Below are positions 1 to 3,685 of a DNA stretch of 64,000 nt, in pieces. Made by a program: the position numbers and the translations under genes. The notes below the pieces were generated by a model. The model ran no database searches and was not told the DNA's origin. It saw only the letters and a list, made by a program, of their open reading frames with translations. Numbering within the stretch: the stretch's first letter is position 1; each line of letters opens with the position of its first letter. The stretch comes from an uncultured Kordiimonas sp. (GTDB taxonomy: Bacteria; Pseudomonadota; Alphaproteobacteria; Sphingomonadales; Kordiimonadaceae), in assembly GCA_947503575.1 (NCBI GenBank), contig CANNDZ010000001.1:248001-312000 (forward strand). Reading direction: 5' to 3'.

Positions 1-1113
1 GATGGGGTGCCATTGTATGTGGACCCGCTGGGTCAATGGTGGACGGGCGATGCCTTAAAAAGCCGCAAAAACTACCCTGTTTCTGTACAGGACGCCGGGC
101 TTGTTCAGGTAACACTGGACCTTGCGGCACCTGCGGCGGCGCGGCCCCGGCTTGGGTTTCAAAAAAAGAGCCTTCTGGCGGAGAAAACACAGTTCATTGA
201 ATTTGACCTGATGGTCCCGGCCATCCATGGCTCAAACGGCGAAGACGGCACCCTCCAGGGTTTGCTTGAGTTTGCTGGCATCCCTTATGCCGGTTGTCGA
301 ACCCTTGGTGCCGCTGCAACCATGAACAAGCAATTTGCCAAAGCCGTTGCCCGCAGGGAAGGTTTGAATGTCCTGCCAGAATTGACCGTTACAAAGCCTA
401 AAAAAGGCCAGTTTATTGACCCCGGCGAGCTATCCAAGGAACTACAGGCCGCTCTAGGCGACGCCCCCTTTCCGGTGATCGCCAAACCCAGCAACCTGGG
501 GTCCAGCGTTGGCGTCTCGAAAGCAGATGATATGGACAGCCTGGTCGCATCTCTAATGGCTATTTTCCGGTTGGACGGGTCTGCGATCGTTGAGCCCTTC
601 GTGCAAAATTTAGTTGAATATAATGTCGCTGTGCGCCGCAACCCCGCGCAGCAGATTGAAACGTCGGCAATTGAGCGCCCCTTAAGCAAAACCGACGTAC
701 TGGATTTTAAAAACAAGTATCTGGCCGGCGGCGCGCCCGGCGGCCCAAAACTTGATACCGGCCCAAGTGAAGGCATGGCATCCCTGAACCGTGTATTGAA
801 CCCGGAAGACCTGACACCCGAACAAGAGGCCCAGATGCGCGACACTTCAACTCGCCTGTTTGATGCCTTGTCGCTTGCTGGCAGTGTGCGGATAGACTTT
901 TTATGTAACAGCGAAACCGGCGAAATCTGGTTCAATGAAGCCAACACCATTCCCGGCTCTTTCGCCTACTTTCTTTGGGAAGCGGCGCCAACACCCCTAA
1001 GCTTTCTGTCACTCACCAGCGACATGATCGCAGAGGGTTTCCGGCTTTCAAGCGACCGGTTGGGCGCTACAGACGCTGCCAGTGGCGGCGCTACAATTTT
1101 CAGTCAGCGCTAG
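1..1113 (+). CDS. D-alanine--D-alanine ligase-like ATP-grasp protein, 5' partial
   Basis: The reading frame is already open at base 1, so the N-terminus lies upstream; the GTG at base 7 is probably internal. The visible protein has the Ddl features: an HGSNGEDGTLQG stretch at the end of the N-terminal lobe, the ATP-grasp segment PVIAKPSNLGSSVGVSKA, and the metal-binding C-terminal motif ending in FNEANTIPG. Ddl enzymes join two D-alanines using ATP in the cytoplasm for peptidoglycan precursors. The omega-loop region reads VLDFKNKY where standard Ddl has FYDYEAKY, so the substrate may differ. It is followed within about 30 bases by a hydrolase and then a membrane Mur ligase, not by the usual ftsQAZ neighbours. 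I am confident of the family and unsure of the exact substrate. Confidence 0.85.
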   Translation, partial: DGVPLYVDPLGQWWTGDALKSRKNYPVSVQDAGLVQVTLDLAAPAAARPRLGFQKKSLLAEKTQFIEFDLMVPAIHGSNGEDGTLQGLLEFAGIPYAGCRTLGAAATMNKQFAKAVARREGLNVLPELTVTKPKKGQFIDPGELSKELQAALGDAPFPVIAKPSNLGSSVGVSKADDMDSLVASLMAIFRLDGSAIVEPFVQNLVEYNVAVRRNPAQQIETSAIERPLSKTDVLDFKNKYLAGGAPGGPKLDTGPSEGMASLNRVLNPEDLTPEQEAQMRDTSTRLFDALSLAGSVRIDFLCNSETGEIWFNEANTIPGSFAYFLWEAAPTPLSFLSLTSDMIAEGFRLSSDRLGATDAASGGATIFSQR

Positions 1114-1145
1114 ACCGAAAGCAAAAGCAAACGGAGGCGTTGACG

Positions 1146-1913
1146 GTGGCAGAAGACAAGACCATTACAAACTGGCACAGCGAAACCAAAGGCAGCGGTG
1201 CGCCAAGTTTTATCTGGCTGCACGGCTGGGGTCAGGACTTAACCGCCTTTAGCCGCCTGTCTGACATTCTGGCGGCAACTGGCACGCACCAGCTTTTTGA
1301 CCAGCCCGGATTTGGCAAAACGCCAATTATTACCAAAGATGATGGTACGCGCGATTATGCCGACAAACTGGCCACTCTGCTTGAAGGGTCGGGCCCTCAT
1401 ATTTTTGTAGGCCACAGTTTTGGCGTCCGCGTCTCTATTCAGCTTGCAGCCAATCACCCTCATCTCGTGAAAGCGATCGTGGGCATCGCAGGCGCAGGGC
1501 TGAAACGCAAACGCTCGCTCGGTTTCAGGGCAAAGGCAAAACTGATACGGTTGTGGGGGCAAATGACAAAGCGCCTGGACCGATTATTCGGCACCAGGAT
1601 GCGCGACCAGTTTGAAAGCCGTTTTGGCAGCGCAGACTACCGAAACGCGGGTGATCTTCGCACCACGTTTGTCAAGGTCGTGAACGAGGACCTGAGTAAT
1701 GAAGCCAAAACGGTTACCTGCCCAACATGCCTGATTTACGGCGAACATGACACTGAAACACCGCCCGAATTTGGACAGCGATACCAGACCATGATGAAAG
1801 ACGCTGAATTTCATCAACTGGCGGGGTATGATCACTGGGATATCTTGACGCGCGGCGCGTATCAATGCGAAGCCGTGATCAAACGATTTCTAAAGAGTAA
1901 AGACCTGCTATGA
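1146..1913 (+). CDS. alpha/beta hydrolase in the Ddl/Mur ligase cluster
   Basis: A 255-residue alpha/beta-hydrolase-fold protein. Visible elements in order are an oxyanion-hole type WLHGWGQD near the start, the nucleophile elbow GHSFG, a GEHD segment carrying the likely catalytic Asp, and YDHWD with the likely His. It resembles BioH-like small esterases, but the substrate cannot be read from sequence. I start it at GTG 1146 because a GGAGG lies 8 bases upstream; an in-frame TTG at 1140 sits too close to that site. Its stop overlaps the next gene's ATG (ATGA), implying translational coupling, so it probably works with the ligase genes on either side. No signal peptide is apparent, so it should be cytoplasmic. 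Confidence 0.85.
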   Translation: MAEDKTITNWHSETKGSGAPSFIWLHGWGQDLTAFSRLSDILAATGTHQLFDQPGFGKTPIITKDDGTRDYADKLATLLEGSGPHIFVGHSFGVRVSIQLAANHPHLVKAIVGIAGAGLKRKRSLGFRAKAKLIRLWGQMTKRLDRLFGTRMRDQFESRFGSADYRNAGDLRTTFVKVVNEDLSNEAKTVTCPTCLIYGEHDTETPPEFGQRYQTMMKDAEFHQLAGYDHWDILTRGAYQCEAVIKRFLKSKDLL

Positions 1914-3685
1914 CTTCTATCTCAACTCTTGATCCATGGGCCTTGGCTATCCCGGCCCTGCTTGCATTGGGCATGTTGTGGTTTGCCGCGGCCCGCGGGG
2001 CGGCCCTAATGATGTTTTTCCAGCAGGAAGAATATGACAATCCCCGGTTTATCAGCTGGTTTCGGGAAAAGCGCGCTTTTGATATCACCGCCAGCATCTG
2101 GTTTATCGCAGCCGCTGTTCTTTCTGCCTTGCTGCAAAGCGACCTGACTGCAACGGCACTGGAGATGTTGCCCCAGCTTATCGTCGCGCCCTTATTCATG
2201 CTGATTGCAGGTGTTGTGCATGGTGTCGCCAGGTCCGCTGCTGCCATGCGCGACAATAAAAAACCGCTTGTGCGCACAGACCGAGTTAAACGTATTCTGC
2301 GGCTCTATCACCTGCTCGCCATTTTGCTGATCGCAGTCGCCTTTTTCATCGCTTCTCTGGCACCCGTTGGGTCCACTTACAGCGTATCCTATAACGAATC
2401 TGCGGCAATCTGGCTGGACCGGCTTGAGTTTTTGAGCCTTAGCCATGACTGGCGCCTGTCTGCACTGGCTGCTCTTGCGGTGGTGGTGGCGCAGGCTTTG
2501 CCGTTTCTAATAATTGGCGCCAACAAATTGCTGGAGCCGGTTGAAGAGCGCATAAAAGCCGGGTTCAGGGATGAGGCTGTTGAAAAATTCAACCGCTTGG
2601 CCCCGACCGTGGTGGCAATTACAGGATCGTTTGGCAAAACCTCTACCAAGCATATTCTGGCTCATATTCTTGCAGAAGCAGCCCCCACGCTGGCTACACC
2701 CGGCAGCGTGAACACAGAAATGGGTATCACACGCGTGATCCGCGAGCAGTTAACGCCGGAACATCAATATTTCATTGTCGAAATGGGCGCTTATGGCCCC
2801 GGATCAATTGCGCGGCTATGCAGGCTGACACCTCCCAACGTATCCCTTGTTACTGCTGTCGGTGCAGCACACTATGAGCGGTTTAAAACCCTGGAAACAG
2901 TGGCAAAAGCCAAGTTTGAAATTGCCGAAGCTGTCTTTAAAAACGGGGGCCGCGCCATCGTCAGCACGGACGGCATTCCCGAGCATTTGCTGAAAGAACG
3001 ACTGTCGGCTGTGCCGGGGGACTATATTCAGGCAGGGGCCAGCGGTGACCTGCAACCAGGCGACCTTCGGTTGAAAGAGTATGGCCTGACACCGGACGGT
3101 TTGAAGATTGCCCTAATTGAAGACGGGGAAGAGCATGTGCTTGTTGTGCCGCTTTATGGTCGGCACCAGGCAGGCAATGTTGTAATGGCGGTGGCAACCG
3201 CCCGCGTCTTGGGTCTGCCTTGGGCAGCGATTAAGGGGTCGCTCGCAACGGTGCCGCAAATACGATACCGCCTTGAAGTTTCCCGTGCCGACGGCGCGCC
3301 GACAATCATCAATGACGCCTACAATTCCAACCCAATTGGCTTTGCCGCCGCGCTTGATTGCCTGGATGTTCTGGTCAAGGAAGGCGGTCGCCGTATTCTG
3401 GTAACGCCGGGCATGGTTGAATTGGGCGCCCTACATGAAGCAGAGCATGAGCGACTGGGCCGCATGACAGCCAAACAAACCGATGTTGTGTGTGTGGTAA
3501 CGCCGGACCGTATTCCAAGTTACGTGCGCGGTCTGGAAGCAGAAAATGATGGCTCAACCACCGTCATGACATTTTCAACACAAGATGATGCAGAAACCTG
3601 GGTCAAAAATAACTGGCAACCGGCAGACGCCGTTTTATTTGAAAATAATTTGCCCGACCTGTATGAGGCAGACGTGCGGTTCTAA
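1910..3685 (+). CDS. membrane-anchored Mur ligase family protein (MurF-like)
   Basis: The 591-residue protein has two parts. Roughly the first 205 residues contain about five hydrophobic, probably membrane-spanning segments (near 10-30, 53-72, 84-105, 129-150 and 183-203). The rest is a Mur ligase: P-loop GSFGKTST near residue 239, the TPGSVNTEMGI segment, and INDAYNSNP near residue 466, followed by a C-terminal ligase domain. Mur ligases use ATP to form amide bonds through an acyl phosphate; MurF adds D-Ala-D-Ala to UDP-MurNAc-tripeptide. The normal MurF N-terminal UDP-binding domain appears to be replaced by the membrane region, so a lipid-linked or non-nucleotide acceptor is possible. Coupling to the hydrolase (4-base overlap) and nearness to the Ddl-like gene suggest one pathway. 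The family call is strong, the substrate unknown. Confidence 0.85.
   Translation: MTSISTLDPWALAIPALLALGMLWFAAARGAALMMFFQQEEYDNPRFISWFREKRAFDITASIWFIAAAVLSALLQSDLTATALEMLPQLIVAPLFMLIAGVVHGVARSAAAMRDNKKPLVRTDRVKRILRLYHLLAILLIAVAFFIASLAPVGSTYSVSYNESAAIWLDRLEFLSLSHDWRLSALAALAVVVAQALPFLIIGANKLLEPVEERIKAGFRDEAVEKFNRLAPTVVAITGSFGKTSTKHILAHILAEAAPTLATPGSVNTEMGITRVIREQLTPEHQYFIVEMGAYGPGSIARLCRLTPPNVSLVTAVGAAHYERFKTLETVAKAKFEIAEAVFKNGGRAIVSTDGIPEHLLKERLSAVPGDYIQAGASGDLQPGDLRLKEYGLTPDGLKIALIEDGEEHVLVVPLYGRHQAGNVVMAVATARVLGLPWAAIKGSLATVPQIRYRLEVSRADGAPTIINDAYNSNPIGFAAALDCLDVLVKEGGRRILVTPGMVELGALHEAEHERLGRMTAKQTDVVCVVTPDRIPSYVRGLEAENDGSTTVMTFSTQDDAETWVKNNWQPADAVLFENNLPDLYEADVRF

Follow-up and report, generated by a model that had tools for sequence, protein, structure and literature searches.

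How does a bacterium complete the stem peptide of its cell wall when the gene that normally does so, murF, is gone from its usual place? This question is raised by the first three genes of a 64,000-nucleotide stretch of DNA (the window) from an uncultured Kordiimonas sp. (G000:C1:248001-312000, where G, C and L numbers are our handles for genomes, contigs and loci), whose genome amounts to 3.61 Mb in 10 contigs with a completeness rating of 100%. They encode a Ddl-like ATP-grasp ligase (Ddl'), an alpha/beta hydrolase and a membrane-anchored MurF-like ligase (TM-MurF). The Mur ligase steps on soluble uridine diphosphate N-acetylmuramic acid (UDP-MurNAc) are taught as universal, and the original prediction read this trio as a second, membrane-linked route that serves a non-nucleotide acceptor. 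Our analysis indicates that the trio is probably the D-alanyl-D-alanine (D-Ala-D-Ala) branch of peptidoglycan synthesis itself, with TM-MurF most likely acting on a lipid-linked tripeptide. As predicted, the three genes are consecutive on the plus strand, in the order Ddl', hydrolase, TM-MurF, and the last two share an ATGA overlap at 1910-1913. The features are as follows.

1..1113, plus strand: Ddl-like ATP-grasp ligase (Ddl'), truncated by the window edge, 407 amino acids in full
1146..1913, plus strand: alpha/beta hydrolase, 255 amino acids, GTG start
1910..3685, plus strand: TM-MurF, membrane-anchored MurF-like ligase, 591 amino acids, with a membrane domain and MurF middle and C-terminal domains
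1910..2599, plus strand: membrane domain and linker helix of TM-MurF, residues 1-230, occupying the place of the UDP-binding domain
2021..2059, plus strand: membrane-edge motif QQEEYD..RF..W, residues 38-50 of TM-MurF
2258..2293, plus strand: membrane-edge motif KKPLV.T.R..R, residues 117-128 of TM-MurF
2618..3202, plus strand: Mur ligase middle domain of TM-MurF, residues 237-431, with the P-loop GSFGKTS at residues 239-245
3269..3640, plus strand: Mur ligase C-terminal domain of TM-MurF, residues 454-577, with DAYNSNP at residues 469-475

Reading the contig past the edge of the window places the start codon of Ddl' 111 bases upstream of position 1. The division and cell wall (dcw) cluster lies outside the window, as had been expected, and is found, intact in other respects, on another contig (L009), where it runs mraZ, rsmH, ftsL, ftsI, murE, mraY, murD, ftsW, murG, murC, murB, ftsQ, ftsA, ftsZ (names assigned from gene order and sequence) and includes neither murF nor ddl. 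Since only three bases separate murE from mraY and murB overlaps ftsQ, both genes are gone from their usual slots. The best match in the genome to the murF model TIGR01143 is TM-MurF itself (217.5-218.3 bits, below the curated cut-off of 288.6), followed by MurE at 120.2 bits, and a search with the Ddl model TIGR01205 returned a single match at E <= 1e-25, the trio Ddl. The existence of another murF elsewhere in the genome was considered and rejected, as all seven Mur_ligase_M matches are otherwise accounted for: they are the dcw MurE, MurD and MurC, TM-MurF, and three proteins which, from place and length, we take to be two cyanophycin-synthetase-like enzymes and one FolC-like enzyme. The same genome carries a cyanophycin-type cluster (L010, G000:C1:1288001-1302000), presumably encoding a cyanophycinase-like protein, a CphA-like protein of 933 amino acids, a second Mur-ligase-like protein of 581 amino acids and an isoaspartyl-peptidase-like protein.

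For Ddl the picture is less sharp. The broad Pfam model PF07478 has nine matches in the window genome, eight of them above its low cut-off; two start like biotin carboxylases when inspected by eye, and the next best to Ddl' (53.6 bits) is a 337-amino-acid ATP-grasp protein at G000:C1:718004 (L012:1045-2058) that scores 68.5 bits against TIGR01205, whose cut-off is 245.65, and gives no match to the Ddl N-terminal domain; its alignment with Ddl' spans 124 columns at 22%. This distant relative is tentatively taken for another ATP-grasp enzyme and not for a maker of D-Ala-D-Ala. Judging from sequence, then, the trio holds the sole good MurF and Ddl of this genome, and because neither a second murF nor a second good ddl was found in it, these look like the essential copies. 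The idea of a second route alongside a standard one consequently does not stand: apart from the trio, the search for separate copies returned only the distant ATP-grasp protein.

What kind of enzyme is TM-MurF? Pfam detects Mur_ligase_M (111.6 bits) and Mur_ligase_C (39.7 bits), and the N-terminal Mur_ligase domain PF01225 has no match at E <= 0.01 in TM-MurF or in three proteins of the same kind. The same scan does detect PF01225 in the dcw MurF of a relative; in decayed dcw MurFs it is marginal or undetected. Hydropathy identifies five membrane segments (best windows 10-28, 57-75, 89-107, 135-153 and 185-203), and the AlphaFold2 model, with a predicted local distance difference test score (pLDDT) of 87.3 and a predicted template modelling score of 0.73, has helices at all five, in agreement with the earlier proposal that about five membrane helices replace the UDP-binding domain in a membrane-linked ligase. 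The top Protein Data Bank (PDB) matches of the model are MurF crystal structures (4qf5, 4ziy, 1gg4). The catalytic motifs (P-loop, active-site Lys and His, YNxNP) are retained in all 24 aligned TM-MurF rows, across which the presumed catalytic residues, the P-loop Lys243, His321, Lys335 and Asn472/Asn474, are invariant.

TM-MurFs nevertheless form a family of their own. All three members tested against the NCBIfam murF model score below its cut-off, including two from Bacillota (253.9 and 241.5 bits). In a tree of the ligase part, built by a quick method, a single group with a support of 100 comprises 58 TM-MurFs of Alphaproteobacteria and 20 of Bacillota, cleanly separated from 48 standard MurFs of both phyla; the tree excluded TM-MurF rows shorter than 480 amino acids (e.g. 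L087 and L203), a row from L091 that has no P-loop, and four dcw proteins that have none either. At L091 (G037:C20) two TM-MurF copies flank Ddl' and the hydrolase, and it is the first that has no P-loop. The TM-MurF of G043, a genome of the same GTDB genus as that of the window, is identical in its ligase part to that of Kordiimonas aquimaris JCM 16665, and Rhodothalassium salexigens DSM 2132 has a TM-MurF that matches the one of G013, in which standard MurF occurs as well.

The membrane domain offers an indication of the substrate. The loop between helices 3 and 4 has nine Lys/Arg residues and that between helices 4 and 5 has two; by charge, the former should be cytosolic and the latter face outward, which puts the ligase part in the cytosol. 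Across 75 rows from two phyla Q38, Y42, T123 and R125 are present in every one and K117 and K118 in 73, and the membrane-domain residues that are fixed in both phyla lie mostly at the cytosolic membrane edge. Because a membrane domain with two conserved cytosolic-edge motifs replaces the UDP-binding domain, a lipid-linked acceptor appears likely. A passage of the MurT structure paper points the same way, stating that the UDP-MurNAc-binding domain is unneeded for a lipid II substrate and likely clashes with the membrane (PMC6113224).

One may also consider that TM-MurF is a chemically normal MurF that uses UDP-MurNAc-tripeptide, its membrane domain serving only to dock it to MraY or another membrane enzyme for handover. 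This would fit the MurF-like catalytic and C-terminal domains, as well as the use of pentapeptide nucleotide by the MraY of other bacteria, with a preference for it in older membrane assays cited in a passage of PMC4987650. Against mere docking, however, stand the absence of the entire UDP-binding domain, an absence that in MurT accompanies a lipid II substrate according to the same part of PMC6113224, and the cytosolic-edge Lys/Arg motifs that are fixed across two phyla, and we therefore regard it as unlikely, while keeping it as the first of the alternatives to be considered.

Under the lipid-linked reading, Ddl' would make D-Ala-D-Ala, as its family and active site suggest. MraY would first load UDP-MurNAc-tripeptide, and the resulting lipid I or lipid II tripeptide would be the acceptor, a step of which we are less certain. 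Anchored in the inner membrane, its catalytic domain facing the cytosol, TM-MurF would then couple the dipeptide to the MurNAc-tripeptide stem at the expense of ATP, as its catalytic motifs and the repeated loss of standard MurF (see below) imply, and the Lys/Arg membrane-edge motif could hold the pyrophosphate. The stem would thus be completed after the membrane step and not before it. Purified Bacillus subtilis MraY, as reported in a passage of PMC4987650, was 17% less active after 1 h on the nucleotide that lacks D-Ala-D-Ala, which makes such loading of the tripeptide feasible.

A single set of 118 genomes of the order was searched for TM-MurF, standard MurF and Ddl; here, as in Bacillota below, TM-MurF counts are among the matches listed, sorted by E-value. 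TM-MurF was found in 44 of these genomes, 29 of them in the GTDB family of the window and 8, 5 and 2 in three others. Not one of the 44 has a Ddl above the TIGR01205 cut-off, compared with 64 of the 74 other genomes; a lower-scoring Ddl is present in 43 (only as fragments in G016, G033 and G096), and no Ddl was found in G042, which is 71% complete. Two genomes of the order, G006 and G007, have a weak second Ddl match (120.1 and 112.3 bits).

In 15 of the 44, standard MurF was not found at E <= 1e-40. The dcw murF slot was inspected in 12 of these, mraY being split over two contigs in G096 and having no match in G014 and G033. In eight genomes (G000, G043, G049, G052, G067, G070, G085 and, from another family, G006) murE runs directly into mraY, with -50 to 4 bases between them. 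In G061 and G076 the slot holds a frame of 329 or 332 amino acids without the P-loop and the C-terminal motif, with a ratio of nonsynonymous to synonymous substitution rates (dN/dS) of 0.345 versus 0.079-0.162 in its neighbours, and in G038 and G064 it holds a 473-amino-acid MurF in which the P-loop lysine and YNAN are lost. Even some full-length copies are affected: of 37 positions that are fixed elsewhere, the MurFs of G087, G104 and G034, all of which have the trio, no longer keep 15, 14 and 13, respectively (columns picked as fixed in TM-MurF too, so that the zero violations of TM-MurF are by construction). We also observed that a histidine at position 167 (numbering of the G021 protein) is present in 8/8 outgroup MurFs and in 1/32 dcw MurFs of trio genomes, with Gly in 12/12 TM-MurFs. 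Standard MurF thus seems to be altered even where it is retained beside the trio; the dcw MurF of G031, which runs off its contig, was not picked up for the alignment.

Across the class, TM-MurF was detected at E <= 1e-70 in 23 of 385 genomes (the window's included) and 20 of 277 genera, and 24 genomes were followed up, namely the other 22 and those of the named loci L072 and L073. Standard MurF scores above cut-off in three of the 24 and is full-length but below cut-off in G334, and Ddl is above cut-off in two, G352 (which also has a lower-scoring one) and G147 (where it lies beside TM-MurF). Only 3-148 bases separate murE from mraY in G389, G174, G482, G350 and G337, which together with the eight of the order makes 13 genomes, in several families, with no room for murF. 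About 500 bases are left in the slot in G352 and G499 (the genome of L073), the slot of G433 holds a 430-amino-acid frame that lacks a P-loop, and G166 and G281 have a MurE with a MurF-like part fused to its end, the part in G166 likewise lacking a P-loop. The space in G352 and G499 contains a frame of about 150 codons (L169:9440-9940 and L170:13080-13595, respectively) that by eye resembles the end of the G433 remnant. Within a single GTDB family, f156, murF is kept in G313 and lost in G482. The normal place of ddl, next to ftsQ in the dcw cluster, is occupied in G433 and L073 by the trio Ddl, with the hydrolase and TM-MurF adjoining. That the loss of murF is an artefact of incomplete assembly was rejected, since in 13 genomes murE is followed directly by mraY. 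Standard murF has been lost repeatedly: those 13 genomes leave no room for it, and others hold only remnants.

Several points weigh against this reading. Full-length standard MurF is present in 29 of the 44 TM-MurF genomes of the order (26 above cut-off and three below), so that both enzymes can coexist and may differ in role. The catalytically dead dcw MurF of G038 and G064 has a dN/dS of 0.051, similar to the 0.034-0.069 of its neighbours, i.e. it is under purifying selection, which plain redundancy does not explain; perhaps it (L103:3846-5267 and L104:3849-5270) is a retained pseudoenzyme, acting as a binding or scaffold protein. The window genome contains the distant Ddl-like ATP-grasp protein, which is why we claim the only good Ddl rather than the only Ddl. 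Finally, an older report cited in a passage of PMC4987650 found that with membrane fractions the tripeptide served MraY far less well as a substrate. The coexistence in those 29 genomes could also be taken to mean that the target of the trio is a lipid or polymer other than peptidoglycan, while the wall precursor is finished otherwise. Such a separate conjugation route is, however, very improbable, given that murF is gone from its slot in the window genome and 12 others, that no carrier in the order has a Ddl above cut-off, and that no other pentapeptide-making enzyme was found. Of the original proposal, the non-nucleotide acceptor survives as a likely lipid-linked one; most likely this acceptor is the normal peptidoglycan precursor in its lipid-bound form and not the substrate of a separate route.

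The trio recurs in a second phylum. In Bacillota, the phylum of a Clostridia locus, TM-MurF was found in 21 of 398 genomes, separated from the remaining matches by a gap in E-value between 1.9e-93 and 1.6e-64; in two of them the alignment to the profile does not begin before position 100, although their sequences still begin with hydrophobic stretches. In the 20 of these 21 loci that were read, a trio-type Ddl lies within 4 kilobases (kb) in all 20 and the hydrolase is present in 19, the twentieth starting at a contig edge, and the gene order is hydrolase, TM-MurF, Ddl. With only three candidates per genome scored, 19 of the 21 genomes have one match to the MurF model at E <= 1e-40, and G685 and G871 have two. 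Counting loci with a TM-MurF frame of at least 400 amino acids, TM-MurF has the hydrolase as a same-strand neighbour no more than 60 bases away in 35 of 38 loci of the order and named set (which includes some species twice), 19 of 23 of the class and 18 of 20 of Bacillota, and a trio-type Ddl within 4 kb in 34, 15 and 20 of them, respectively. Several exceptions are contig edges, but in G185 and G334 no hydrolase was found beside TM-MurF although room is available. The original view of the trio as one conserved cluster is thus upheld far beyond chance.

Could the dipeptide itself be unusual? Ddl' has both Pfam domains of the family (Dala_Dala_lig_N, 100.9 bits; Dala_Dala_lig_C, 97.5 bits), and its 215.2 bits against TIGR01205 fall under the cut-off, which a Bacillota relative in L239 exceeds (306.4 bits). 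As had been noted, its omega loop, VLDFKNKY, departs from the FY[DN][YF]xAKY of standard Ddls. After NExN, the 17 trio rows listed have PGSxx[YF]xLW where standard alphaproteobacterial Ddls have PGMTPLSLVP, a change that might alter the second residue of the product. This allows the possibility that Ddl' couples D-Ala with a partner different from a second D-Ala, that TM-MurF attaches the product and that the hydrolase removes what is unwanted, a little like the logic of vancomycin resistance, and it would agree with the tie between hydrolase and ligase and with the VanX-like M15 D-Ala-D-Ala dipeptidase (L072:2859-3659; PF01427, 67 bits) that adjoins a trio-type Ddl. Yet all 17 rows keep the Lys-Tyr of the omega loop, the best-scoring family models for Ddl' are D-Ala-D-Ala ligases, and the dcw cluster of the window genome includes ftsI, whose type of transpeptidase normally needs D-Ala-D-Ala; a variant stem end is therefore improbable. 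The Ddl tree, unlike that of MurF, is not clean, the trio Ddls of Alphaproteobacteria requiring two changes and those of Bacillota four, so that common descent of the trio Ddls as one unit is not demonstrated.

As for the hydrolase, Ser91, Asp202 and His230 are found in 52, 52 and 51 of 52 aligned rows, and this conserved triad makes the enzyme look active. No signal peptide is apparent by eye. Its AlphaFold2 model (pLDDT 91.5) resembles esterases, BioH and RsbQ, a likeness that does not fix the substrate by fold. It may be a cytosolic quality-control esterase or amidase that clears wrong or surplus dipeptide or product, but this is a tentative guess and the weakest step of the scheme.

Taken together, we lean slightly towards the view that in these lineages of Alphaproteobacteria and Bacillota MraY loads UDP-MurNAc-tripeptide and a membrane MurF adds D-Ala-D-Ala to lipid I or II, that species without standard MurF make no Park's nucleotide, and that hydrolase, TM-MurF and Ddl' form a unit which occurs in two phyla and has taken the place of the standard enzymes on many occasions. 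If so, the last peptide step shifts to the lipid stage, altering what MraY uses, a different nucleotide precursor would accumulate under wall antibiotics, and it would affect which MurF inhibitors work. We recognised no description of a membrane-anchored MurF in the open-access literature searched, most subscription papers lying outside that search. Relatives that have both enzymes, that retain a standard MurF in decay or that possess only the membrane enzyme constitute a natural experiment, and the findings suggest that cell-wall synthesis can shift one of its textbook steps to the membrane.

Among known systems, MurF (TIGR01143) shares with TM-MurF the middle and C-terminal domains, the P-loop, the active-site Lys and His and YNxNP, and its structures are the first to match; TM-MurF differs in its five membrane helices, its missing UDP-binding domain, its score below the cut-off and its own branch in the tree. 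MurT, of the MurT/GatD pair, is likewise a Mur ligase without a UDP-binding domain and acts on a lipid-linked precursor, as stated in part of PMC6113224, which for TM-MurF is our proposal. MurT, for its part, contains a Cys4 zinc ribbon, is partnered by GatD and amidates D-Glu, and TM-MurF is closer to MurF. The window TM-MurF, with cysteines at 304, 484 and 528 only, has no such ribbon, and GatD is not among the trio genes, no genome-wide search having been aimed at it. Ddl' resembles Ddl (TIGR01205) in both Pfam domains and the catalytic motifs, but at about 400 amino acids it is longer than the standard dcw Ddl of the order (about 310), with a long insertion after the omega loop and a changed loop after NExN. 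The hydrolase, finally, has the fold and catalytic triad of alpha/beta hydrolases of the BioH/EstV/RsbQ type, EstV being its best NCBIfam model, and it differs from them in scoring 84.8 bits against a cut-off of 300, in its identity of 16-23% among the 50 structural matches listed, and in being tied to TM-MurF.

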